This document shows positions 116 through 31,495 of a stretch of 32,552 nucleotides of DNA, one piece after another. The position numbers were made by a program, and so were the translations under genes. Within the stretch, counting starts at the first letter, position 1, and each line of letters begins with the position of its first letter. Source of the DNA: Clostridia bacterium DTU065 (GTDB taxonomy: Bacteria; Bacillota; DTU065); the NCBI GenBank assembly GCA_001512545.1, contig LFSI01000007.1, positions 3,555 through 36,106 of the forward strand, given 5' to 3'. The notes under the pieces are model-generated. The model was given only the letters and a program-made list of their open reading frames with translations, was not told where the DNA came from and searched no databases.

Positions 116-856
116 TTACTTGCAGGTTTTCGGTTCCTGCTGCAGGCGGGGAATTGCCTTCAGCAGAAGTTTTTTGAGGTTTTTGGAGTTTGCTTTCATC
201 ACCTCAACCACCTTCTCGTGCTCAAGGGGCTCTTCAGAGATTCCCGCTCCGAGATTTGTCACGGTACAGATGCAGCTGTAGCAGATCTCCGCTTCCTTGG
301 CCAGCGTGACCTCAGGCACATTGGTCATGCCCACAACGTCTCCGCCTAGTTGGGCGAACATCTTAACCTCCGCCGGGGTTTCGTAACGCGGCCCTTCTGT
401 GCAGACATAGCAACCTTCGGCGTTTTTGATACCGAGACTCTGCAGTTCTTCTTTGAGTATAGCGTTAATCTGCCTGCAGTAAGGTTCGGTGAAATCCAAA
501 TGCTTCACCTGAGTTTCATCGAAGAGAAGGGCTCGGCGTTTGGTAAAGTCCAGAAACTGATTGAGGATGACAAACGTTCCCGGGACCAGTTCCGCTCGTA
601 AAGATCCCACCGCAGAAGTGGCCAGGATCCTCTCTACACCGAGCATTTTGAAAGCTGCGATGTTTGCCCTGTAGTTGATCAAGTGGGGCGGGACGCTGTG
701 GCCTTTGCCGTGGCGGGGAAGAAAGAAGATCTCTTCCCCGCCAAAAACTCCTCTTTCAAATTCAACTTCGCCGTAAGGCGTAGTTATCTTATCTGCGGTA
801 GTCTGAAAGAGTTCGGCATCGTAGACTCCTGAGCCTCCGATGATGCCTACTTTCAT
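116..856 (-). CDS. mtnP: S-methyl-5'-thioadenosine phosphorylase / purine nucleoside phosphorylase family
   Basis: 246-aa ORF. N-terminus MKVGIIGGSGVYD and motifs PRHGKGHSVPPHLINYRANI and TEGPRYETPAEVKMF are typical of the MTAP family. Confidence 0.93.
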   Translation of the reverse strand: MKVGIIGGSGVYDAELFQTTADKITTPYGEVEFERGVFGGEEIFFLPRHGKGHSVPPHLINYRANIAAFKMLGVERILATSAVGSLRAELVPGTFVILNQFLDFTKRRALLFDETQVKHLDFTEPYCRQINAILKEELQSLGIKNAEGCYVCTEGPRYETPAEVKMFAQLGGDVVGMTNVPEVTLAKEAEICYSCICTVTNLGAGISEEPLEHEKVVEVMKANSKNLKKLLLKAIPRLQQEPKTCK

Positions 857-1833
857 TTGAGATCAGCCTTGGCAAAGGCTTTGGCAAGAGCTAAAGCTGC
901 ATCAAGGTCTCTGACATCGACCATTTCCGACCTGCTGTGAACGTAGCGGGTGGGAACGGAAATCACCCCTGACGGAACGCCTTCACGGTTGAGGTGAATC
1001 GCTCCGGCATCGGTTCCTCCGAACTCGAGGACCTCCATTTGATAGGGGATGTTGTTGGCTTCTGCAAGCTCAACCAACTTGTCTTTCACGTATGGATGAG
1101 CCAGAAGCGAGTTGTCCTTCACCTTGATAGCGGCGCCTTTCCCCAAGGACACGTCCATGGTCATGGCTTTTGGAGTATCTCCAGTTGCAGTGACATCAAT
1201 TGCCAGGCCGTAATCTGGGTCGATACCGTATGCCGCTGTCTTGGCACCTCTCAAACCCACTTCTTCCTGGACTGTGAACACTGCAACAATGTGGTTGTCG
1301 GTCTCTGGTAGCTCCTGCATGAGCTTGATCAATAGCGCACAAGCAACTCTGTTGTCCATGGCTTTGGAGACCAGTCTGTTGCCCAGATCGATAAAAGGCG
1401 AAGTGAAGCAGGCGGTGTCGCCGATTTTCACCAGCTTCATGGCTTCTTCTTTACTCTCCACCCCGATATCGATGTAGAGGTTTGATTTCTGCAAATCGGC
1501 GATTTTATCCAGTTTTTCCACGCCGATAACGCCTAAAGTCCCGTTTTGGAACTGCACTCTTTCTCCTGGGAGATAGAAGGGGTTTACTCCGCCGATAAAG
1601 TCAAAGCGCAAAAACCCTTCTTTATCGATATGGGTTACGATTATCCCGATTTCGTCCATATGCGCAGAAAACATAATCTTGCTCTTAGGTCCCTTTTTCT
1701 CGACAATCAAGTTGCCCAGCGCATCGGTTCTGGTTTCGTAGTTTGGCAGCTCGGATTTGATAATCTCGCGGATACACTGCTCGGAACCTGAAGGACCGCA
1801 AGCTTGCGTTAGTTTCTTAAGCAGCTCTTTCAT
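853..1833 (-). CDS. M42 family metallopeptidase (aminopeptidase/endoglucanase-like), copy 1
   Basis: 326-aa ORF with SAHMDEIG, KAMDNRVAC, QEEVGLRGA and RYVHS motifs of M42 peptidases. Confidence 0.93.
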   Translation of the reverse strand: MKELLKKLTQACGPSGSEQCIREIIKSELPNYETRTDALGNLIVEKKGPKSKIMFSAHMDEIGIIVTHIDKEGFLRFDFIGGVNPFYLPGERVQFQNGTLGVIGVEKLDKIADLQKSNLYIDIGVESKEEAMKLVKIGDTACFTSPFIDLGNRLVSKAMDNRVACALLIKLMQELPETDNHIVAVFTVQEEVGLRGAKTAAYGIDPDYGLAIDVTATGDTPKAMTMDVSLGKGAAIKVKDNSLLAHPYVKDKLVELAEANNIPYQMEVLEFGGTDAGAIHLNREGVPSGVISVPTRYVHSRSEMVDVRDLDAALALAKAFAKADLK

Positions 1834-2855
1834 TCAAAGTCAACCCCTTTATCTGCAATATCATGCACAAACAGCTCTACGAGCTTGATCATATGCTCCA
1901 AGTCGGACTTGCTCATCACGGTAACCGGAGAGTGGATATATCTGCAGGGAACGGCAATTGGAGCGGTGGGCACGCCTTCCCGGCTGAGGGAGATCGCGCC
2001 TGCGTCTGTGCCGCCTGTGATAGTCCGCTTGTTTTGGATCGGTACACCGTGTTCTTCAGCAAGCCTAAACAGTCTGCCCACAACTTTGGGATGAGCGATA
2101 ACGCTGCGGTCCATAACCGAAACTGCAGGACCAGCACCGACTGTTGTGGAGTAGCCTTCTTCATCTGTGCCGGCTACATCAGACGCGGTGGTTCCCTCCA
2201 GAACCAAACAGACATCGGGACCCACTCTGTAAGCTGCAGGGCCTGCTCCTCTGAGACCGACTTCTTCCTGCACGGTAAAGACGAAGTAAACCGGGCAGTT
2301 GAACTCCAGCTTTGTCAGCTCAACCAATGCAGTACAGCCGGCTCTATCGTCGAAGGCTTTACCTACCACCAAGTCCCCCATCTCTCCGAAAGAAGTAGCA
2401 AAAGTCGCCACATCGCCGGGTTTCACAAGCTTCTTGGCGCTGTCATCGTCTACTGCGCCGATGTCAATATAGAGATCGTCAAAACCCAGGACCTGGGTTC
2501 TTTCTTCAGGTCTCTGCAGGTGAATGGCTTTTGCGCCAATAACACCAACTACCTTATCTTTGCCGATGTAAACGGGCTTGGAAACCAAAACCCGGGGATC
2601 TATACCGCCCACCGGTTGAAAACGCAGAAGTCCGTTTTTTTCAATAGTGGTGATCATCAGCCCCACTTCGTCCATATGGGCTGCGAGCATGACTTTGGGT
2701 CCTGGTTTATCCTTTCCCTTAACTCCGTACAAGTTCCCCAGAGAGTCGTTGAAGACTTCATCCACATGAGGCGTGATGTACTCTCTGATCAGGTCTCTCA
2801 CTTCGTGCTCTCTGCTCGAGACGCCCCGTGCCTCACTTAACTCTTTTAAAAACAT
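1830..2855 (-). CDS. M42 family metallopeptidase, copy 2
   Basis: 341-aa ORF with AAHMDEVG, KAFDDRAGC, QEEVGLRGA, GGTDAGAI and RYIHSP. Overlaps the next gene by 4 bp. Confidence 0.93.
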   Translation of the reverse strand: MFLKELSEARGVSSREHEVRDLIREYITPHVDEVFNDSLGNLYGVKGKDKPGPKVMLAAHMDEVGLMITTIEKNGLLRFQPVGGIDPRVLVSKPVYIGKDKVVGVIGAKAIHLQRPEERTQVLGFDDLYIDIGAVDDDSAKKLVKPGDVATFATSFGEMGDLVVGKAFDDRAGCTALVELTKLEFNCPVYFVFTVQEEVGLRGAGPAAYRVGPDVCLVLEGTTASDVAGTDEEGYSTTVGAGPAVSVMDRSVIAHPKVVGRLFRLAEEHGVPIQNKRTITGGTDAGAISLSREGVPTAPIAVPCRYIHSPVTVMSKSDLEHMIKLVELFVHDIADKGVDFE

Positions 2856-3892
2856 GGCAATCCCTCCACAAACTCGCGATCGGCTTTGAGGGCGAACTCT
2901 GCGAGCAACCTACCGCCTTCTTTAATGTCTGCCAGATCCAGAGTTTCAACTGAAGTGTGCATATATCTCAGAGGTAGGGACACCAACGCACAGGCAACTC
3001 CGTTCCTGGCGATTTGAATACTCCAAGCATCTGTTCCCCGCGCGCTAGTCGACGCCTCAAGCTGATAGGGGATCTTCGCTTCATCTGCTACCTCTTTCAA
3101 CTTCTCCAAAATCTTCGGATGGGTGTCAGGTCCCATGCTGATTACAGGTCCTTTGCCGAGACCAAAGCCCCTGTCTGCCCTTACACCGGGGAACTCACCG
3201 TGACAGACATCCACAGCAATAGCCAGATCGGGGTTTACGCTGTAAGCACTCACAGCTGCGCCTCTAGTTCCCACTTCTTCCTGTACTGTGGCAACCAAGT
3301 AGACATCAAGGTTGTGGTGCACTTCAGTCAGCCTTTCCAGGCAGGCTGTAAGCATGACCACACAAGCTCTATCGTCAAAAGACTTTCCGGCATACCTATT
3401 GCCTGAAAGCTTCTGAACTTCTCTGTTGATGGTGATAATATCTCCTACTCTAACCAGTTCTTCAACTTTTTCTTTTTTAAGACCCACATCGATATAAAAT
3501 TCGTCTTTCTCGTATGCCTTTTTCTGTTCGCTCGGCGACTGCAGGTGAGGAGGCTTGGCTCCGATAACTCCCCGGAGTTTCTCCCTGCCGTGAACTGTGA
3601 CTTCCTGGGCAACTAGAGTGCGGAAGTCAAACCCGCCGACAGTTGCAAAGCGAATAAACCCATTGTCGTCGATTTTCTTTACCATTAGACCAATTTCATC
3701 TATGTGGGCGGCCAAAAGCAGCTTCCCGTGCCCTTTGCCCTTCTTAAAAGCAATTACATTGCCCAGGGCGTCTTTCCTAACTTCGTCTGCCATAGGAAGC
3801 CATCTTTCGGCTATTAGATCAGCTGGCATAGTTTCATATCCCGATACGCCACTTGCTTCGGATAATGACTTCAAAAGCTCAGCTAAATCCAT
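2846..3892 (-). CDS. M42 family metallopeptidase, copy 3
   Basis: AAHIDEIG, KSFDDRACV, QEEVGTRGA, ARGTDAWSI and RYMHTS motifs. The track start (3907, a TTG) lies in GGGAGGTGAG, which is the ribosome-binding site of the ATG at 3892, so the start is moved to 3892. Confidence 0.92.
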   Translation of the reverse strand: MDLAELLKSLSEASGVSGYETMPADLIAERWLPMADEVRKDALGNVIAFKKGKGHGKLLLAAHIDEIGLMVKKIDDNGFIRFATVGGFDFRTLVAQEVTVHGREKLRGVIGAKPPHLQSPSEQKKAYEKDEFYIDVGLKKEKVEELVRVGDIITINREVQKLSGNRYAGKSFDDRACVVMLTACLERLTEVHHNLDVYLVATVQEEVGTRGAAVSAYSVNPDLAIAVDVCHGEFPGVRADRGFGLGKGPVISMGPDTHPKILEKLKEVADEAKIPYQLEASTSARGTDAWSIQIARNGVACALVSLPLRYMHTSVETLDLADIKEGGRLLAEFALKADREFVEGLPCF

Positions 3893-4023
3893 GCTCTCAC
3901 CTCCCAAAGTTGTTGCACTTATTATATTCCCCGAATGCCGGGGAAAACAACGCCAAAACCATCGGCCTACCTAAAACAATTCGCCTGCGCCGCAATTTTG
4001 CCTCTTTTTTCCAGAGGTCTTCA

Positions 4024-5258: not shown

Positions 5259-5672
5259 CTAACCTAATACTTGCACGCAGACCCTTCTAGTTCGCGGACC
5301 GTCAAACTCGCAGAGGTAGATGCCCTGCCAAGTGCCAAGGGCCAACTTCCCGTCCCGCACAGGAATCACCTCAGATGGTCCTACAAGGCTTGTAAGGACG
5401 TGTGCAGGAGAGTTTCCCTCCATATGCCTGTATTCCTTGAGATAGGGGCTGATGAATTCAAAAGCAGCGAGCATATCCTGCCTGACGGTAGGATCGGCGG
5501 CCTCGTTGATCGTCACTGCACACGTGGTGTGTTTGGCAAAGACGAGACAGATCCCGCTTTCGACTCCGCTCTTTTTGACAATATCTTCCACCCGATCGGT
5601 TATGAGGACGATCTCTCTTCTGTGCTTGGTGGCAACAGTAAGATCATCCTGAAAACATGCCATCTTTTTCAC
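5259..5672 (-). CDS. YjbQ/UPF0047 family protein
   Basis: 137-aa ORF with CLVFAKHTTCAVTINEAADPTVRQDM, HMEGNSPAHVLTSLVGPSEVIPV and LGTWQGIYLCEFDGPRTR, characteristic of the YjbQ family. Confidence 0.92.
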   Translation of the reverse strand: MKKMACFQDDLTVATKHRREIVLITDRVEDIVKKSGVESGICLVFAKHTTCAVTINEAADPTVRQDMLAAFEFISPYLKEYRHMEGNSPAHVLTSLVGPSEVIPVRDGKLALGTWQGIYLCEFDGPRTRRVCVQVLG

Positions 5673-7060
5673 CTCAAAGACTTAAGATATTCATCGATGG
5701 ACCTGGCAGCTGTTTTTCCAGCTCCCATAGCTTTAATCACCGTTGCAGCTCCTGTAACGATGTCGCCTCCGGCAAACACCCCTGGAATGGACGTTTGCTG
5801 GTTTTCGTCCACCAAAATCAATCCTCTCTCATCGGTTTTCAGTCCCGGAATACTGCGCGTCGCCAGGGGATTTGGTCCCTGACCTATAGCCACAATCACC
5901 ATATCTACATCGAAAACCTCAAACTCGCCTTCGATGGGCACCGGAGCCCTCCTGCCTTTTGCATCCTTCTCTCCTAGCATCATCTTCTGACACCTGACGC
6001 CATTTACCCTGAACTCCTCGTCTCCGAGGATCTCCACAGGATTTCTGAGTAGGTTGAAGACTACGCCCTCTTCTTCGGCATTCTCTACCTCTTCAGCTCG
6101 CGCCGGGATCTCCTCACGGCTTCTGCGATAGACAATGTGGACCTCCTTTGCTCCCAATCTCAGTGCGGTTCTCGCAGAATCCATAGCAACGTTACCAGCG
6201 CCGACAACCGCAACCTTCTCACCGACGTAAACCGGAGTGTCCACTTCAGGAAACTTGTAGGCTTTCATCAAGTTGACCCTAGTGAGAAACTCGTTGGCAG
6301 AATACACACCGTTGAGGTTTTCACCGGGTATGCCCAAGAAGTACGGAAGGCCTGCCCCCGCACCAATAAAGAAGGCTTTGTAGCCCTGAGCTTTTAAGTC
6401 TTCCAAGCTCACCGTAACTCCCACGATCACATTGGTTTGGAAGGTAACACCGAGGCTCTTAATGTACTCGATCTCTGAGTCGACGATGGACTTGGGCAGC
6501 CTGAACTCAGGGATGCCGTAGCGCAGAACGCCGCCGAGCTCATGTAAAGCTTCAAACACCGTAACCTTGTAGCCTAACAGGGCAAGGTCGGCAGCAGCGG
6601 TCAGTCCTGCAGGCCCCGATCCGATCACTGCAACTTGCTCTCCGGTAACTTCTGGTTTTTCCACAGACACTCCGTCTGCCCGTTCCTTGTCAGCAACATA
6701 CCTTTCAAGAGCTCCAATGGCCACAGACTTACCCTTCTTACTGAGAATGCAGTTAGCCTCGCACTGGACCTCCTGGGGACAGACCCTGCCGCAGATGGCA
6801 GGCAGAGAGTTTTTCTCCTTGATGATTGCAGCGGCTTTTTGCAGATCGCCGTCTTTTACAGCCTGTATAAAACGGGGGATCGGTGTTTCCACCGGACAGC
6901 CCGCGACGCACTTAGGTATTTTGCAGTTGAGACAGCGCATGGCTTCAGCCAGCGCTTGATCGTCGTCAAAACCGAGGGCCACCTCTTTGAAGTCCTTCGC
7001 TCTTTCCTCAGGTGCCCTTCTCGGCATTTCGTTCCTATCTGAAAGCACCAATGGTTCCAC
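5669..7060 (-). CDS. gltA: NADPH-dependent glutamate synthase small-subunit-like flavoprotein (GltA homotetrameric type or NfnB-like)
   Basis: 463-aa ORF. N-terminal cysteine clusters CLNCKIPKCVAGCPVETPIP and CGRVCPQEVQCEANC, FAD motif VIGSGPAGLTAAADLA, NADP motif VVGAGNVAMDSARTALRLGA, C-terminal GVFAGGDIVTGAATVIKAMGAGKTAA. Confidence 0.9.
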   Translation of the reverse strand: MEPLVLSDRNEMPRRAPEERAKDFKEVALGFDDDQALAEAMRCLNCKIPKCVAGCPVETPIPRFIQAVKDGDLQKAAAIIKEKNSLPAICGRVCPQEVQCEANCILSKKGKSVAIGALERYVADKERADGVSVEKPEVTGEQVAVIGSGPAGLTAAADLALLGYKVTVFEALHELGGVLRYGIPEFRLPKSIVDSEIEYIKSLGVTFQTNVIVGVTVSLEDLKAQGYKAFFIGAGAGLPYFLGIPGENLNGVYSANEFLTRVNLMKAYKFPEVDTPVYVGEKVAVVGAGNVAMDSARTALRLGAKEVHIVYRRSREEIPARAEEVENAEEEGVVFNLLRNPVEILGDEEFRVNGVRCQKMMLGEKDAKGRRAPVPIEGEFEVFDVDMVIVAIGQGPNPLATRSIPGLKTDERGLILVDENQQTSIPGVFAGGDIVTGAATVIKAMGAGKTAARSIDEYLKSLR

Positions 7061-10335: not shown

Positions 10336-11115
10336 TTATCCTTGCCATTTGGGGTATGAGCCCAAGATCTTGAGGAAAGAGGTTTGCTCTTTCACCTTGC
10401 TCAAAGCTGCACTCACCACAGAGTCCTTTCTGTGCCCGTCGCAGTCGATGTGGAAAAGGTACTCGCCGAGATAGCGTTTTGTTGGCCGCGACTCAATACG
10501 CGTGAGGTTGATACCGTAGTCGGCAAAGATCGCAAGGACCCTGTACAGTACGCCGGGCTTGTCGTTCAGCGTGGAAAAAATGATGCTGGTTTTGTCGCGT
10601 CCGGTGGGCTCTGGACCTTCAGACCCAAGAACTGCAAAACGGGTACTGTTGTCCCTTCGATCCTGTATGCCTTTCTCCAGAATGGGAATGCCGTAAACTT
10701 TTGCAGCCTGCAGAGAGCCGATAGCCAGGGCTCTTTTCTTTTTGGCCTCAAGCACTCCATAGGCTGTGGAACTTACCGGGATGGGCTCTAGGTTGTTTCT
10801 CTCCAGGTACTCCCGGCACTGACCTATAGCCTGGGGATGGGAGTAGACAATTCTGTTCGTCTCGTTCTCATAGCCCAACAGGCAGTGGGAGATCTGCAGA
10901 TTCACCTCTCCCACCACATGAACTTCAGACTCGAGCAGAAGATCCAGAGTCTCACCTACAGACCCCTCTATGGAGTTTTCCCACGGTACGATCCCCCGCC
11001 CATTCCTGCTGTTTTGGAAGACTTCTTTAATGGACTTCACCGCAATTGCATCTTCATCTAGAAGCAGCGCTGCTTCGTGAGAGTAGGAACCTTCCGGTCC
11101 CAAGTAGTAGATCAT
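10336..11115 (-). CDS. pheA: Prephenate dehydratase with C-terminal ACT domain
   Basis: 259-aa [47 protein letters not shown], and ACT segment [26 protein letters not shown]. Confidence 0.94.
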
Positions 11116-12107
11116 ACGCCCTCACCTAGATTTAAACGGGCCATCAGACGTTCAAACTCCTCGAAGTTCAGGGACTGGGGTCCGTCAGAGAGAGCTCCGT
11201 CGGGATTGGGATGGACCTCAATGATCAGGCCGTCTGCTCCAGCTGCAAGGGCAGCCTTTGCTAGAGGTTCCACAAGGCTTCGCTTGCCCGATGCATGGCT
11301 GGGATCTGCCAAAACCGGCAGGTGGCTGGTTTCTTTTGCCAGCGCAATTGCAGAGATGTCCAGAGTGTTTCTGGTCCAGGGCTCGAAGGTTCTGATACCT
11401 CTTTCGCACAGCACCACCTGGCTGTTTCCTTCCGCAAGAATATACTCTGCGGCCATCAGCCACTCTTGAATTGTAGATGAAAGTCCGCGCTTCAAGAGGA
11501 TGGGTTTTCTGGTCAGGCCGACTTCCTTCAAAAGAGAGAAGTTCTGCATGTTACGCGCACCGATTTGGAGCATGTCTGCATACTGTGCCACGATTTCCAC
11601 GTCCCGAGGATCGACCACCTCTGTAACTACAGGAAGACCGTACGCTCTTCCTGCTTCGCTGAGGAGCTCAAGTCCTTTTGTCTTCAACCCCTGGAAGGCG
11701 TAGGGCGATGTGCGGGGCTTGAAAGCACCGCCCCGGAGCATGTTGGCTCCGGCTTTTTTCACTGCTTCTGCGGTTTTTAGCATCTGGTCCTCTGTCTCCA
11801 CCGCACATGGACCGGCAATTACTACTTTTTCCTTGCCGATGGAAACGCTTCCTACTTTGACCACACTGCCTTCAGGCTGGCATTCCCTGCTGACAAGTTT
11901 ATAAGGTTTACCAACTCTAATAGCCTTTTCCACCTTCGGCCAGAGCTGGGCCTGCTCAAGGAGTTCATCGGTGATGGTGCCGACGACGCCGATTACGCTT
12001 TGATTAACTCCATGGATCACGTGACAGGAAAAACTCAAAGTCTCGAGCTTACTGCAGACTTCCTTAATCTCCACCGACGAGGCTTCTGGCTTCATAACGA
12101 TGATCAT
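11112..12107 (-). CDS. aroF: 3-deoxy-7-phosphoheptulonate synthase, type I-beta with N-terminal ferredoxin-like regulatory domain
   Basis: 331-aa [60 protein letters not shown] and [17 protein letters not shown]; about 80 extra N-terminal residues. Confidence 0.94.
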
Positions 12108-12120
12108 AGCTTTCCCTCCT

Positions 12121-12387
12121 AAAAAAATGACCTCGCCCCAAAGGGACGAGGTTTTCTCGCGTTACCACCCTAATTGGCTGTTTCCAGCCCACTCCTATCA
12201 GGTACGAGCTTAGCGCTGATACCCGCTTCCTTTTAACGGTGGAAGTTTCCGTCCCGATCTACTTTGCGTTCAACCGGGCAACTCCGGGGAGAACTTCGCT
12301 TACGGCTTTCTACCGGGTTTCCACCATCCCCGGCTCTCTATAAGTCCCCCGCAAGGTACTTTTCCCCTTCACAGTCTTTAATATATT
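12121..12387 (-). promoter_or_regulatory. T-box leader with terminator/antiterminator, upstream of aroF-pheA; candidate UUC (Phe) specifier at 12291-12293
   Basis: Minus strand contains the T-box core AATTAGGGTGGTAACGCGAG, then terminator CCTCGTCCCTTTGGGGCGAGG followed by a TTTTTTT tract. Stem I-like AGAGAGCCGGGGATGGTGGAAACCCGG and AGCGAAGTTCTCCCCGGAG. Confidence 0.9.
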
Positions 12388-12452: not shown

Positions 12453-13646
12453 TTACCGGCTCTTAAGGAGCGACCTGCCTACACTTAAGAAGAGCTCGGC
12501 GCCATAACCGATGATTTTTTCGTTGAACTTGAACTTGCTGTTGTGCAGAGGCATGCTGCACTCTTCTGTTCTGCTTCCGAGAAAGAGCATGGCACCTGTG
12601 ACCTTTTCGGTGTAAAAGGAGAAGTCTTCAGCAGCCATCGAGGGAAAGCTTAACTCCTTATAAGTTAAGCCTTGTGGGAGGTTTGCCTGTACAATTTCCA
12701 GAGCCGTCTGGTGATTTACGGTCGGCGGATACTGTTCGACATACTCCACCTCCGCTTCCAACCCAAAGGCTTTAGCTGTATACTCGGCGTGCCTCTTCAG
12801 GCTCTCGCCAATCTTCTTTCTTGACTCCTGCGACAGAGCCCGAATGGTCCCTTCAAGGGTTACCTTGTCGGGAATGATATTGTATGCAGTGCCTGCACTG
12901 ATGCTGCCGATGGTCAAAACCGCACCATCCCAAGGAGCTATCTCTCGGGATACGATGCTCTGAAGAGATGTGACGAGGCTGCAGGCACAGACGATAGGAT
13001 CCTTTGCCAGGTGTGGCGCTGCGCCATGACCGCTCTTCCCCTTCAGGACTACGCTGAAGCGGTCGTTTGAGGCCATAATAGTCCCAGGTCTGCTTGCCAC
13101 AATACCCTCAGGAACCTCAGGCCAGATGTGCAGGGCGTAAACGTAATCGGCTCCATCCAAAGCTCCTGCTGCAACCATCCTCTCTGCACCGCCGTAGAGT
13201 TCTTCTGCAGGTTGAAAGATTCCCCTAACCTCTCCTTCCCAGGATGTGTCTTCAACGAAGGAAAGGAGCGTGAGTGCTAGAACCGCCGTGTGACCATCGT
13301 GCCCGCAGGCGTGCATTCTGCCGGGGTTCTCCGACGCAAAGCTAAGCCCCGTCTCTTCATGCACAGGTAAGGCGTCGATATCCGCTCTGAAGGCCACCAC
13401 TGGTCCGCCTTCTCCCCTCTTAATTCTGACCACAAGACCGGTCTCGAGGGGCTGAGAGACTTGAACTTTGGCACCGTTTAGCTCCACTTCTTCAGTAGAG
13501 AAGCCTTTGGACACCAAAAAGTCCCTGATCCGCCTGGTGGTTTCCTTTTCCTCTCGTGAAAGCTCGGGAAACCTGTGCAGTTCCCTTCTGAGCTCAACGG
13601 CACTTTGATAATGCTTGTTGATTATCTCGCTAAACTCCATGTTCAC
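12453..13646 (-). CDS. M20 family amidohydrolase/peptidase (N-acyl-amino-acid or hippurate hydrolase-like)
   Basis: 397-aa ORF. RELHRFPELSREEKETT, FRADIDALPVHEETGLSFAS, MHACGHDGHTAVLAL, GIFQPAEELYGGAERM and MAAEDFSFYTEKV. Confidence 0.92.
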   Translation of the reverse strand: MNMEFSEIINKHYQSAVELRRELHRFPELSREEKETTRRIRDFLVSKGFSTEEVELNGAKVQVSQPLETGLVVRIKRGEGGPVVAFRADIDALPVHEETGLSFASENPGRMHACGHDGHTAVLALTLLSFVEDTSWEGEVRGIFQPAEELYGGAERMVAAGALDGADYVYALHIWPEVPEGIVASRPGTIMASNDRFSVVLKGKSGHGAAPHLAKDPIVCACSLVTSLQSIVSREIAPWDGAVLTIGSISAGTAYNIIPDKVTLEGTIRALSQESRKKIGESLKRHAEYTAKAFGLEAEVEYVEQYPPTVNHQTALEIVQANLPQGLTYKELSFPSMAAEDFSFYTEKVTGAMLFLGSRTEECSMPLHNSKFKFNEKIIGYGAELFLSVGRSLLKSR

Positions 13647-13665
13647 ACCTGCTTCAAGAGGTAGT

Positions 13666-14853
13666 TTAATAGCTGGCGATCTTTCTACCGTATTTTTCCA
13701 TAATCTGCCAGTTGGGTTCGGTTCCGATTCCCAAACCTTCAGGCAGGTAGATTCTTCCCTTTTTGTCCATCTCGATCTCTATAAGGTCCTTGCCCATACC
13801 GTACCATCTGGCACTAGCCTCGACGTCGGCTGGGTAAACAAAACCATTGAACGAAGCGAGAGCGAGGATCGGCATGGCTCCAACTCCCGACTCGGGCATG
13901 GTGCCGCCCCACAGTTTGATGTTATTCTCTACGGCTAGCTTGTAGAGCTTCAAACCCTCTAAGAGGCCGCCGATTCTCTGAACTTTGATGTTCCAAACAT
14001 CAATGCCGCCAAGTTCAATAACCTGCCTTCCTACCCTAAAAGACTTTAGAGACTCATCGAGGCAGATCGGGGTCTTGACGTTCTTTGCCAGAGCTGCATG
14101 GTCCAGGATGTCATCGTGGTTTAGCGGCTGCTCATAAAAGGTGCAGCCCAGCTGGTCCATTTCCCGGAAAACCTCGGAGTTTTCCAGCTCATAGGAAGAG
14201 TTTGCATCTACCCAGAACAAGAAGTCCGGCCCGATAACCTCACGGGCTGCCCTTGCAGGTTCAATATCCCAGCCGGGCTTAATCTTGATTTTGATTCTTC
14301 TATAGCCTTCCTCCACATAGTCTGCCACCCAGGTCTTCAGAGTGTCGAGACTCCGGTCCCCGGGGATACCCACTGAAACGCCGGACTCGATGTACTCTTT
14401 ATACTCAAGATGCTTCTGGTCTACGCCCATCTGAGCCAGTTTGATCTTGATGGCATCTACCAGACGCAGGTTGTTCTTCTTGGCCACAAGATCCCAGTAG
14501 GCATTTTCCAAACCGGCTTTAGCGAAGTTGTTGCCCCTTATACCTTCTGCCAGAACGCTGTTCAGCTCTTCGATGGAGGTGAACTCCTTGCCTACAACCT
14601 TCGGTATGAGCCACTCATGGAGCATTGCCTTAACCGACGAGATGGTCTCGCTGGAGTAAAACGGTGCGTCAAAAGGCGCCGATTCTCCGTAGCCCACCAG
14701 GTCGCCGGAGGTCATTTTGATAATGATGCTCTGCCTGTTGTAGCTTCTTCCACCGGAGATTTCAAAGGGTACCAGGAGCGGAATGGCCACCTGGTACAGC
14801 TCTATACCGTCTATCTTGATCCTTTCGTCTAAATAACTCATCGTTTGCCACAC
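13666..14853 (-). CDS. Enolase-superfamily protein, N-acylamino acid racemase / o-succinylbenzoate synthase-like (MenC/NSAR family)
   Basis: 395-aa ORF. RIKIKIKPGWDIEP (catalytic Lys context), FWVDANSSYELEN, FYEQPLNHDDILDHAALA, TPICLDESLKS, WNIKVQRIGGLLEGLKL and WGGTMPESGVGA. Confidence 0.86.
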   Translation of the reverse strand: MWQTMSYLDERIKIDGIELYQVAIPLLVPFEISGGRSYNRQSIIIKMTSGDLVGYGESAPFDAPFYSSETISSVKAMLHEWLIPKVVGKEFTSIEELNSVLAEGIRGNNFAKAGLENAYWDLVAKKNNLRLVDAIKIKLAQMGVDQKHLEYKEYIESGVSVGIPGDRSLDTLKTWVADYVEEGYRRIKIKIKPGWDIEPARAAREVIGPDFLFWVDANSSYELENSEVFREMDQLGCTFYEQPLNHDDILDHAALAKNVKTPICLDESLKSFRVGRQVIELGGIDVWNIKVQRIGGLLEGLKLYKLAVENNIKLWGGTMPESGVGAMPILALASFNGFVYPADVEASARWYGMGKDLIEIEMDKKGRIYLPEGLGIGTEPNWQIMEKYGRKIASY

Positions 14854-16080
14854 CTACTTTACCAGTACATATGGATTGAGATCTGTTACTTCGAGGAAGG
14901 TGAAAGGCTCGGTGCCTTTCCCTAGTTTTTCGCGGATGTATATCAGTCCTGCAACCAGACCCTTTTGGGGATTGAAAAGCAACTCGTGCACTGCTTTTCT
15001 GGTTCTGCTTGCATCTATCGGAGCATACTCACTTTGAGGTATCTGGAAAAACGTGTGCATCTGTCCGTTTACCGCACCGCGGAGAGCATACTCAAGCATC
15101 ATCTTCCCGGAACAGATGTTGCCTGTTGCAGAGACCTGCCGAGAAGGTTTGTCATCCAAGACCTCTTCCAGAGCCCAGAGGTTGCGGTCGCTGAGGTCGT
15201 AGCCGCCGTATGCTACACCGACTTTGCCCTCAAACTCCTTGTTGTGGTCGAACAGCCTGTTGAAGCAGATGGCAAAATCTGCAAGCCAGGAGCTGTCCTT
15301 ACCCAGGAATTCTCTGACCAGCTCCCGCTGAAACTCATCTTCCAAAGTTGCGTTCATCATCTTCACGCCCAGGTGAATGGGCTCGTCCACAGACTGCTTG
15401 ATGAGCCTTGGCACATCCTGCAACCAGGAGATGATCATATCCTTCTGTCCCGCCACATCGGTGCCGGCAAACGTTGGAGAGAAGTCCTTCTCCATGACCA
15501 TGTCCTCGTTTTTGTGCTTTTTCCACACTTCCAAAAGCTTTTGAGTAGTATAGGTGTACTCACTCAGCTTGTACTCTTCAGACGGGCCTGGCAGGTGGTA
15601 CTTTACGCTGGGGATAATTGGATATTCTCCTGCCACAGCAAGACACTGGTCGAAGAAGTCCAGGTAGTCGTCGAGGCTCTTCTCCCAGCCTCTGCCCTTC
15701 CACACAACCGAGTAGCCCTCTTCTCCGTTTTTGGAGACGAGCTTTTCCACCACCATCTTGGGTGCATGGATCTTCCATTGATCCATCTCGGCCTTTTTAT
15801 CCTGGTCTTCAGCGATAACGGTTTTCAGAACCGTAAAGCCCAGACCGCCTTCGATATCGGCCATAACCTGCCCCTTGTTTGTAGAAAGCTGACCTGAAGC
15901 CTTGCCAAAGGGGTTTTTGATCTTGAACGGCCCGTAAAAGCTGGACACATCGATGTTGTACCTGTCTTTGATATGGCTTTCGGGCTCTTCAATCAGTCTG
16001 TTGTAGTCCTCATTTAGAGCTTTTTGAAACTCTTCCGAGACCTCAAACTCCTGAGGCAGGAAGTACCGAGGCTTTACCAC
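14854..16080 (-). CDS. Dihydroorotate dehydrogenase-like TIM-barrel protein of unknown function
   Basis: 408-aa ORF. IKNPFGKASGQLSTNKG...GGLGFTVLKTV resembles the DHODH N-terminal FMN region (NPxGxASG...KTV). C-terminal QVSATGNICSGKMMLEYALRGAVNGQMHT resembles the GGI...ALxAGA...VQxxT phosphate-binding region. Confidence 0.6.
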   Translation of the reverse strand: MVKPRYFLPQEFEVSEEFQKALNEDYNRLIEEPESHIKDRYNIDVSSFYGPFKIKNPFGKASGQLSTNKGQVMADIEGGLGFTVLKTVIAEDQDKKAEMDQWKIHAPKMVVEKLVSKNGEEGYSVVWKGRGWEKSLDDYLDFFDQCLAVAGEYPIIPSVKYHLPGPSEEYKLSEYTYTTQKLLEVWKKHKNEDMVMEKDFSPTFAGTDVAGQKDMIISWLQDVPRLIKQSVDEPIHLGVKMMNATLEDEFQRELVREFLGKDSSWLADFAICFNRLFDHNKEFEGKVGVAYGGYDLSDRNLWALEEVLDDKPSRQVSATGNICSGKMMLEYALRGAVNGQMHTFFQIPQSEYAPIDASRTRKAVHELLFNPQKGLVAGLIYIREKLGKGTEPFTFLEVTDLNPYVLVK

Positions 16081-17033
16081 CCCAATCCCTCCAATTCCTG
16101 TACAACCTCTCTGATGGCTGCTCTTTCTTCTTCACTAACCCCCGGTCCGTAAGGATCCCAAGCGGCGCTTTCAGGCACAAGACCCTGAAGCACGCAAATG
16201 TACAACATCCTCTCGATGTAGCCTTCCATAGGTTTGATGAAGGTTACCTCTGCCAGTTTATCCACGAGAACTGTAAGTTCTACGAAAGCCTTGTAATCCT
16301 GATCGTAGTAGGCGTCAATCAAAGCTTTCTGGAGCTTGGTGAATGCAGAACCGATACCTACAAGAGCACCCCTTCCCCCACGCATCATGGTGTAGCCAAA
16401 CATGCGGTCTTCGCCGGTGATCAGGGCTTTGTTGGGGAACTCCTTTGCGATTAAGTTGGATACGTCTTGGTAGGTCATGACCGAATCTAAAGTCGCCATC
16501 TTGATAGCTACTGCGTTTTCCAGAGCAAACAGTTTACGCAGAACATCTAGGCTGTAGGAGATTCCTCCGGCAGCTTCGTAGAGGTAAAACAATACCATGT
16601 CAAGACCTAGTGAATTCAAAGCTTCATGATACTTAACGATGAGTTCGTCTTGATTATCCTTCCCCCTAAAAAAGCTCGGCGCATATGTGAGAATGCCATC
16701 TGCTCCGAGAGCTTTAGCATGCTCTCCCATCTTTTTTGCATCGGCGATAAACTCTTCTTCACTGGTGAAGTTGCGGGAACCTACGCCGCAGATGATCTTT
16801 TTGTCGGAGCTAAGAGCACTTCTGTAGACTTTGTAGACCTTTTCGCGATCCTCTTCCGAGAGCATCAGCCCTCTTCCTGTGTGCGCCCAAACGGCAATAC
16901 CTGTAATGGGCTGTGTGTCCATCCACTCGGCGTACTTCTTCAGCGCATCGTAGTCGATGGTTCCGTCTTTTCTGAATGTTACAGGTACCGCTGGATAGAG
17001 ACATCTGTCAAGTACTAAAGCCATTTTACACAT
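16074..17033 (-). CDS. Dihydrodipicolinate synthase/N-acetylneuraminate lyase (DapA) family protein
   Basis: 319-aa ORF. PAVPVTFRKDGTIDYDALKKYAEWM, GIAVWAHTGRGLMLSEEDREKVY, ICGVGSRN, GADGILTYAPSFFRG and AIKMATLDSV (Schiff-base Lys context). Confidence 0.85.
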   Translation of the reverse strand: MCKMALVLDRCLYPAVPVTFRKDGTIDYDALKKYAEWMDTQPITGIAVWAHTGRGLMLSEEDREKVYKVYRSALSSDKKIICGVGSRNFTSEEEFIADAKKMGEHAKALGADGILTYAPSFFRGKDNQDELIVKYHEALNSLGLDMVLFYLYEAAGGISYSLDVLRKLFALENAVAIKMATLDSVMTYQDVSNLIAKEFPNKALITGEDRMFGYTMMRGGRGALVGIGSAFTKLQKALIDAYYDQDYKAFVELTVLVDKLAEVTFIKPMEGYIERMLYICVLQGLVPESAAWDPYGPGVSEEERAAIREVVQELEGLGW

Positions 17034-17105: not shown

Positions 17106-18233
17106 TTAAAACAAAACAGCAAGCCCAACTCCTCCGGAAAAGTTAGCGGTTGCAGGTTTTCCCTTGGGAGTCGTGTAAACAACGCCTAAATCTGCCTGAA
17201 GCTGCAGACTGTCCGTGAGGCTTTTTCCAACTGCAAGCTCGGCTCGCAGCTTCTTCTCCACGATTTCGCTGAGGAAAAAGGTTTTGTAGGCCTCATCCCG
17301 GCCAATGGTAGTCCAGTACTCATCGAGGTGACCGGGACCGTGCCACTCGTAGGCTAGGCTGAGACTCGATGAAAAACCGCCGGTTCTTAGGTTCAGGATT
17401 CCACCGAGTTTTAGAGCATCTGGACCTAAATCATCACCGAGAAACTCGCTTCCCGTTGTGTAGCGCCCATGTCCTCCCCAGTGGGAATGCAGGTACCGGG
17501 TATTAGCCAGCGCTGCTGCAGAAAACTGGACCTTCGCTCCGGAAAGTTCGAAGATCTCGGAACTGTAACCTAGAGACACTCCCATCACAGGAAGTTGGTT
17601 GAAGGTAAACGGTATAAAGGGGAAGTCGTCGATGATGGTCTCCACGTAGATGATGGCTCCGCTGTTAAAGACATACCCTGTATTGAACCCCATTAAGACA
17701 TTGATGTCCCTGTTGTTTACCACTCTGCTTTTTAAAGCTAAGTGCTGTACTAGGTATACGGGCAGAAGCGGCACCGGGTTGTACATGAAGTAAATGGTTT
17801 CGTCGTTTCCCACAATCACGCTGGTTTCAAAGAAATCCAGGTAGATTGGAAAACCCTCTTTTGTAGCCTTAAGTCTGTGGGCCACAAACCTTCTAGAACT
17901 ACCAAGGTCGGCAAGGAGCTTCTCATAACGAAAATCAAAGGAGAGAAGCCGGAAAGAAAACTCATAGCCACCTGTAAAAAGGTCTGCAGAAACAGCTACA
18001 GAGGGAAGAGACTTGAACTCCTCGAAGGCGAAGCTGTCGTTGAAATCCACAAACCCTGAACTGGCTTTGAGCTTGAAATTGCCAAAGTCAAACTTCGCCT
18101 TAAAGGTCGGCTTGACCTCTCCTGTGCTTTCTAGATGTACTGCTGCTTCCCCCGACAACTTTATGGCAAATGCTGCAAAGGAAAGCAGGAGGACTAAAAC
18201 CACCGAAATAAACTGTTTTTTTGATATGTTCAT
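17106..18233 (-). CDS. Secreted or envelope protein, candidate outer-membrane beta-barrel
   Basis: 375-aa ORF with signal-peptide-like MNISKKQFISVVLVLLLSFAAFA, many alternating hydrophobic/polar segments, and C-terminus FSGGVGLAVLF ending in Phe. Confidence 0.6.
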   Translation of the reverse strand: MNISKKQFISVVLVLLLSFAAFAIKLSGEAAVHLESTGEVKPTFKAKFDFGNFKLKASSGFVDFNDSFAFEEFKSLPSVAVSADLFTGGYEFSFRLLSFDFRYEKLLADLGSSRRFVAHRLKATKEGFPIYLDFFETSVIVGNDETIYFMYNPVPLLPVYLVQHLALKSRVVNNRDINVLMGFNTGYVFNSGAIIYVETIIDDFPFIPFTFNQLPVMGVSLGYSSEIFELSGAKVQFSAAALANTRYLHSHWGGHGRYTTGSEFLGDDLGPDALKLGGILNLRTGGFSSSLSLAYEWHGPGHLDEYWTTIGRDEAYKTFFLSEIVEKKLRAELAVGKSLTDSLQLQADLGVVYTTPKGKPATANFSGGVGLAVLF

Positions 18234-31280: not shown

Positions 31281-31495
31281 AAAAAAGGGAGCCGTAAAAG
31301 GCTCCCACGCGTATCCCCCGCCATGCCGCTGGTGCTGAAAGTTAATGAACCTGCTCGGGCAGGTGGGTGTCCTGTTCACAGCTTAGGCAAAGCCGAAACC
31401 GGCTCGGCGGCCACTGCAAAACCCCGGACTCCCGTTTTGTGTGTGTTGGCTCATAAACACTTCAGCTTGACCACGAACACAGCAGGGTGGTGTCT
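31281..31495 (-). ncRNA. ssrS: 6S RNA candidate (about 215 nt, own promoter and terminator)
   Basis: ORF-free interval between aspS and tcdA. Minus strand has a promoter and an intrinsic terminator GGGAGCC-TTTTAC-GGCTCCC-TTTTTTT about 200 nt apart. GC-rich complementary ends (CACCACCCTGCTGTG / GCGGCATGGCGGGGG). From memory, B. subtilis bsrA lies in the same aspS/yrvM (tcdA) gap. Confidence 0.75.

Follow-up and report, generated by a model that had tools for sequence, protein, structure and literature searches.

A recurrent, undescribed gene module that joins a DapA-like lyase and a predicted flavoenzyme of an unnamed DHODH-type family to an NSAR-like racemase and an M20 hydrolase

The NSAR racemase, in combination with an L-specific acylase, forms the established enzyme pair for the conversion of D- to L-amino acids. 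The Lys-Lys mechanism of NSAR has been described (PMC8142540), and two gene clusters are among the closest described systems for the locus analyzed here. In the yxe operon, an S-(2-succino)cysteine operon, an FMN enzyme and YxeP act on an N-acetyl amino acid derivative (PMC9706529); in the ong cluster, N-acetylglucosaminate, an N-acyl amino-sugar acid, is deacetylated and loses ammonia, as an N-acetyl-D-amino acid would (PMC9537276). The four-gene block of Clostridia bacterium DTU065 resembles the yxe operon in that a YxeP-type M20 hydrolase is encoded beside an FMN-type enzyme (predicted as such in our case) but differs from it in that the FMN enzyme of yxe is a monooxygenase, an acetyltransferase is present, and neither DapA nor NSAR is named (PMC9706529); we saw no gene for an N-acyltransferase within the block. 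The ong cluster uses a D-aminoacylase, a PLP deaminase, RidA and KdgK, and thus none of the four families of the block.

The block occupies positions 17033-12453 on the minus strand of the window, that is, the entire stretch of 32,552 nucleotides of contig LFSI01000007.1 that was analyzed, and is transcribed in the order DAP, DHO, NSAR, M20. DAP (16074..17033, 319 amino acids) is a Schiff-base lyase of the DapA/N-acetylneuraminate lyase family that represents a distinct orthologous group; DHO (14854..16080, 408 amino acids) is an undescribed TIM barrel protein of the DHODH/DPD superfamily, putatively of the FMN type; NSAR (13666..14853, 395 amino acids, TIGR01928) is a racemase-like protein of the NSAR/OSBS family within the MLE subgroup of the enolase superfamily; and M20 (12453..13646, 397 amino acids, TIGR01891) is an M20 family amidohydrolase similar to the YxeP/ILR1-like N-acyl amino acid hydrolases, all four genes being on the minus strand. 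The preliminary description of this DNA had claimed four tightly packed open reading frames, and we reproduced the coordinates, the strand, the 7 bp overlap of DAP and DHO, the gap of 0 between DHO and NSAR, and the 19 bp gap between NSAR and M20. The families assigned there also stand for DAP, NSAR and M20, which match the DHDPS, MR_MLE and Peptidase_M20 models (Pfam/NCBIfam); the label "DHODH-like" for DHO found no support in sequence searches and was borne out by the predicted structure.

A gene for a porin-like outer-membrane protein (17106..18233, minus strand; no Pfam match) is located 72 bp upstream of DAP, and alr another 21 bp beyond. Judging by the gene order in relatives, the porin-like gene may be the first of the unit: it precedes DAP in three of the four relatives from the same class (L006, L008 and L009), the fourth contig being too short. 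Its membership of the unit is uncertain. Downstream of the block, a promoter-like site and a T-box leader open a separate aromatic amino acid unit, so that M20 is the end of the block. Chance linkage within an alr operon was rejected because in locus L007 the block is convergent to the alr operon, and elsewhere the block occurs without alr.

DAP is a member of the DapA family (Pfam DHDPS, 87.6 bits) but falls short of every functional cut-off, with 71.4 vs 206 bits for the equivalog model TIGR00674 (4-hydroxy-tetrahydrodipicolinate synthase) and 60.4 vs 382 bits for TIGR00683 (N-acetylneuraminate lyase). The AF2 model (pLDDT 94.5) retrieves NAL and DHDPS structures in a Foldseek search with E about 1e-17 to 1e-16 and is nearest in fold to N-acetylneuraminate lyase. 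In common with the DapA/NAL family, DAP has a TIM barrel, the Schiff-base Lys178 and Tyr152, both residues being invariant in 45/45 orthologues. Unlike that family, it has HTGRG in place of the TTGE carboxylate motif and an invariant TGEDR region (among the 45 orthologues, the sampled positions of the two motifs are invariant bar one T52S), and it shows about 20% identity to solved members.

DHO represents a predicted flavoenzyme family that is absent from Pfam and NCBIfam. Sequence searches of Pfam, NCBIfam and the PDB returned no match for this protein, nor was it among the matches when the host genome was searched with PF01180. The DHODH/DPD fold was confirmed at the level of the predicted structure: the best PDB matches of the AF2 model (pLDDT 91.4) in Foldseek are DPD (E 5e-13) and DHODH (about 1e-9), and a profile of 43 DHO sequences gives only borderline matches in the PDB, most of which are DHODH or DPD. 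In its predicted fold, its flavin-site lysines and the region of the TG(N/G)I phosphate loop, DHO resembles the superfamily, but it is only 15-18% identical to the superfamily members, lacks a PF01180 match and contains an invariant GRGW. In a weak profile alignment with the host PyrD (E 0.005), K86 and K240 of DHO fall on K44 and K163 of PyrD; these FMN-site lysines are conserved across the DHO family, and we infer that DHO binds FMN. The N-x-S-C/S-P-N catalytic loop of DHODH reads E-K-D-F-S-P-T in DHO, with Ser201 invariant, in the same weak alignment (E 0.005), hence the reading of the active site is tentative. An assignment of this loop by eye to PSxKYHLP was dropped because the profile alignment and the strand order give EKDFSPT. 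Given that DHO does not preserve the DHODH motif of the orotate site and catalytic Cys in its original form, a DHODH-like reaction can be proposed for DHO by analogy only.

The preliminary placement of NSAR as NSAR-like was right: the protein scores 236 bits against the TIGR01928 cut-off of 200.65 and belongs to MR_MLE by Pfam. A dipeptide epimerase was rejected because the respective models score far below their cut-offs. The nearest solved structure is 3mwc, an unassigned protein from Kosmotoga, followed by the NSAR/OSBS structures 2zc8, from Thermus, and 1sja, the NSAR of Amycolatopsis. With these enzymes, NSAR shares the subfamily model, the catalytic lysines K190 and K290 and the metal ligands D216, E241 and D266 (invariant in 28/28 sequences), as well as the Arg of the IKxxR motif (27/28); unlike in the NSAR/OSBS family, it is grouped in the genome with a DapA-like lyase and a DHODH-type flavoenzyme, with no menD over the cut-off. 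M20 exceeds the TIGR01891 cut-off (350 vs 153.75 bits) and is close to YxeP and the ILR1-like enzymes, and its metal ligands C114, H116, E149, H173 and H368 are invariant in 15/15 sequences.

These two adjacent genes with intact catalytic residues could perform the ordinary conversion of D- to L-amino acids, with NSAR working alongside an L-specific acylase while DAP and DHO serve a separate task in the same operon. Such enzyme pairs are generally known. The Lys-Lys mechanism is also on record (PMC8142540). Nevertheless, we regard this explanation as quite improbable because, at DHO loci, NSAR is far commoner than M20 (23 vs 11), NSAR stays with DAP where DHO is lost, and no succinyltransferase was noticed beside NSAR. 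Housekeeping functions, namely, lysine/diaminopimelate, menaquinone (OSBS) or pyrimidine synthesis, to which only the family names point, are exceedingly improbable and were rejected: a canonical asd-lysC-dapA-dapB region and a true pyrD are present elsewhere in the host genome, menD is below the cut-off in 5/5 genomes of the class, and the block is sporadic outside the host class.

To chart the distribution of the block, genome contigs were scanned with the DHO alignment, which yielded 56 loci; the scan depends on the presence of one of two peptide patterns, so that this number is not a census. DAP is found nearby in 39 of these loci, always on the same strand and at a distance of at most 163 bp in 35, NSAR in 23 and M20 in 11; the 17 loci that lack DAP include many contig ends and solitary genes of planctomycetes. 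In the host class, DHO and DAP are both present in all five genomes, and DAP, DHO, NSAR and M20 are linked. In a scan of the phylum, DHO was detected in 10/399 genomes and DAP in 14/399, and all 10 genomes with DHO also have DAP (Fisher p 4e-17 by genome, where the counts are non-independent, and about 4e-7 when counted by family, assuming that at least 114 families were sampled). In three Bacillota genomes (G353, G393 and G383), which belong to two further families, DAP, DHO, NSAR and M20 are clustered in three different orders; Gemmatimonadota have the run DAP-DHO-NSAR and Paenibacillaceae the run M20-DHO-DAP, with one Paenibacillus group lacking NSAR and M20. The pairwise distances of DHO, DAP and NSAR correlate, with 0/500 permutations as high. 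In the DHO tree, the sequences from G353, G393, G383 and the class of the window form a single clade (support 100/98) that is the sister group of Gemmatimonadota; the carriage of the genes by the three Bacillota genomes is sporadic within their own orders, which indicates horizontal spread. A search of plasmids produced nothing with DHO and only distant family members with DAP.

Among 12 genomes with a solo DHO, mostly planctomycetes, none has a DAP of the group found in the block at E 1e-10, save for one weak match. Most planctomycete DHO genes are alone in genomes without such a DAP, so that DHO does not always depend on the other three proteins. These solo genes (L010, L013, L018, L037, L057 and others) are often divergent from a gene for a xylose isomerase-like TIM barrel protein. 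The four-gene set is recurrent, beyond chance neighbourhood, and its linkage is about as certain as genome comparison permits. DAP and the DHODH-type enzyme are the core, whereas NSAR and M20 are accessory and not universal. The earlier proposal that the four genes form one functional unit survives the refuting conditions set with it: the families remain linked across distant genomes although their order is rearranged, and no characterized pathway with such content was found. None of the papers found in the literature collection searched describes the combination of DAP, DHO, NSAR and M20; the module is real, undescribed and recurrent, and is built from known superfamilies and one unnamed flavoenzyme family.

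Replacement of individual enzymes within the module is the strongest functional clue and, like the linkage, folds and conserved catalytic residues, is a computed result. Three of the four genomes that possess DAP without DHO encode a DPD-like fusion or a PreA-like protein nearby. In G035 and G088, a fusion protein of 850-864 amino acids directly precedes DAP; it combines DHO_dh, Fer4_20, Pyr_redox_2 and Fer4, which is the set of domains of dihydropyrimidine dehydrogenase. The DAP cluster of G212 includes a PreA-like protein with DHO_dh and Fer4, and the fourth genome, G128, has only NSAR-DAP-Gfo/Idh. The presence of a DPD-like or PreA-like protein where DHO is absent implies that a redox step by a member of the DHODH superfamily seems to be required with DAP, and predicts one reaction for all three types of enzyme. 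The amide hydrolase slot is variable as well: two types of M20, 22-30% identical, are found in the class of the window and Paenibacillus vs G353, G393 and G383, and elsewhere the slot holds a creatininase family gene (the G212 cluster) or Amidohydro_2 proteins (Gemmatimonadota). The window also encodes a PreT-like protein (5669-7060, minus strand) with Fer4_20 and Pyr_redox_2, two domains that G035 carries in fusion with DHO_dh; the protein is conceivable as an electron partner of DHO and is unlinked to the block.

The block probably breaks down a nitrogen-containing acid by an undescribed route. Our best explanation, held tentatively, is that the block is a catabolic module that has spread horizontally and whose slots are fixed, one each for a DapA-like lyase, a flavoenzyme of the DHODH type, a racemase similar to NSAR and an amide hydrolase; the module would act on an N-acyl amino acid or amino-sugar acid. 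Both dihydroorotate and the dihydropyrimidines are cyclic N-acyl amino compounds, in which DHODH and DPD act on the carbon-carbon bond by the carboxylate or carbonyl; in N-acyl amino acids, NSAR acts at the alpha carbon and M20 enzymes at the amide bond. The three chemistries meet at an N-acyl alpha-carbon unit, which would therefore be the common substrate unit. In the scheme deduced from these parts, with substrate, order of steps and FMN inferred, a carboxylic acid that is N-acylated at its alpha carbon (whether an N-acyl amino acid or an N-acyl amino-sugar acid) would be taken into the cell, and its alpha carbon would be inverted by NSAR. The flavoenzyme may make or reduce a C=C bond beside the carboxylate, by analogy with DHODH and DPD; the acyl group would be taken off by M20 or a substitute; and the resulting 2-imino or 2-oxo acid would be split or dehydrated by the DapA-like enzyme via a lysine Schiff base. 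A more specific version is a new route that we consider unlikely: in an open-chain N-acyl amino (sugar) acid, the bond between the alpha and beta carbons would be desaturated or reduced by the flavoenzyme with the DHODH fold, and deacylation would then give a 2-oxo acid for direct aldol cleavage; if true, this would amount to oxidative deamination without PLP or an amino acid oxidase.

The neighbours of the module in other lineages match the catabolism of an amino acid derivative or an amino-sugar acid. The operons of Paenibacillaceae add a heparinase II/III, a solute-binding protein, two permeases, Gfo/Idh, a xylose isomerase-like protein and a regulator-like protein; the Gemmatimonadota loci, a heparinase-like protein, a GHMP kinase and a class III aminotransferase; G353 and G393, an Nramp-type transporter, an L-serine dehydratase and a regulator-like protein as in Paenibacillaceae; and G383, LacI, Gfo/Idh, PreA-like and NagB-like genes. 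The L-serine dehydratase, Nramp-type transporter and ABC importers nearby fit with a catabolic role, and the heparinase-like, sugar ABC, Gfo/Idh and NagB-like neighbours point as much to an amino-sugar acid as to a simple amino acid.

The main rival, which overlaps with the best explanation and is itself somewhat unlikely, is a non-phosphorylative pathway for amino-sugar acids. A heparinase-like lyase would free the sugar and a Gfo/Idh dehydrogenase would oxidize it to an N-acetyl-hexosaminate; the enolase-type protein would epimerize or dehydrate this acid, the flavoenzyme would handle an unsaturated intermediate, M20 would deacetylate, and DAP would be a 2-keto-3-deoxy sugar-acid aldolase. 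This pathway is compatible with the Hepar_II_III proteins in the Paenibacillus, Gemmatimonadota and G276 neighbourhoods and the heparinase-like genes elsewhere in G000; with the SBP_bac_1-type binding protein, permeases, Gfo/Idh and xylose isomerase-like TIM barrel near relatives of the block; with the NagB-like gene in G383 and a sialidase-like protein (by eye) in L054; with the proximity of the DAP fold to N-acetylneuraminate lyase; and with the precedent of N-acetylglucosaminate being degraded like an N-acetyl-D-amino acid (PMC9537276). Against it, the block in the window includes neither a sugar dehydrogenase nor a kinase or lyase, the enolase superfamily member is of the Lys-Lys NSAR/OSBS type rather than the acid-sugar dehydratase type, and the role of the flavoenzyme is left unexplained. 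The unnamed flavoenzyme family gains a functional context and testable partners, both in Paenibacillus, which can be cultured, and in phyla that are uncultured; the single reaction predicted for DHO and the DPD-like and PreA-like proteins opens the pathway to direct tests and would correct the annotation of the DapA-like, NSAR-like and PreA-like proteins in such clusters.

Several additional genes were observed at these loci and in the window. The regulator-like protein, of about 450 amino acids, accompanies DAP in Paenibacillus, G202, G353, G393 and G035 (for example, L020 7351-8706, L116 9057-10391 and L093 11356-12834) and is absent beside the block in the window; it shows a weak GGDEF_GdpP match in L116 and, by eye, an apparent C-terminal HTH. 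A [FeFe]-hydrogenase-like gene, a possible electron sink, lies beside the module in G353 and G393 (L090 5520-6818, L091 14406-15833). In the planctomycete locus L054, a LysA-type gene (10571-11872), over the cut-off of the diaminopimelate decarboxylase model, is inserted between DHO and NSAR and is followed by the gene for the sialidase-like protein. In the window, a T-box leader (12139-12381, minus strand; Rfam RF00230, 142 bits) precedes the DAHP synthase gene of the aromatic amino acid unit, which also has a promoter-like site (12422-12394) and a terminator (12152-12130) and looks tRNA-regulated. Omp85 is encoded in all five genomes of the host's small class, an uncultured relative of Firmicutes, and the porin-like protein is present in this Bacillota MAG; given the Omp85 genes, the class appears to have an outer membrane, that is, to be two-membraned. 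The window further includes three M42 aminopeptidase genes in tandem (853-3907, minus strand) and a 6S RNA gene (31311-31491, minus strand; RF00013, 79 bits).
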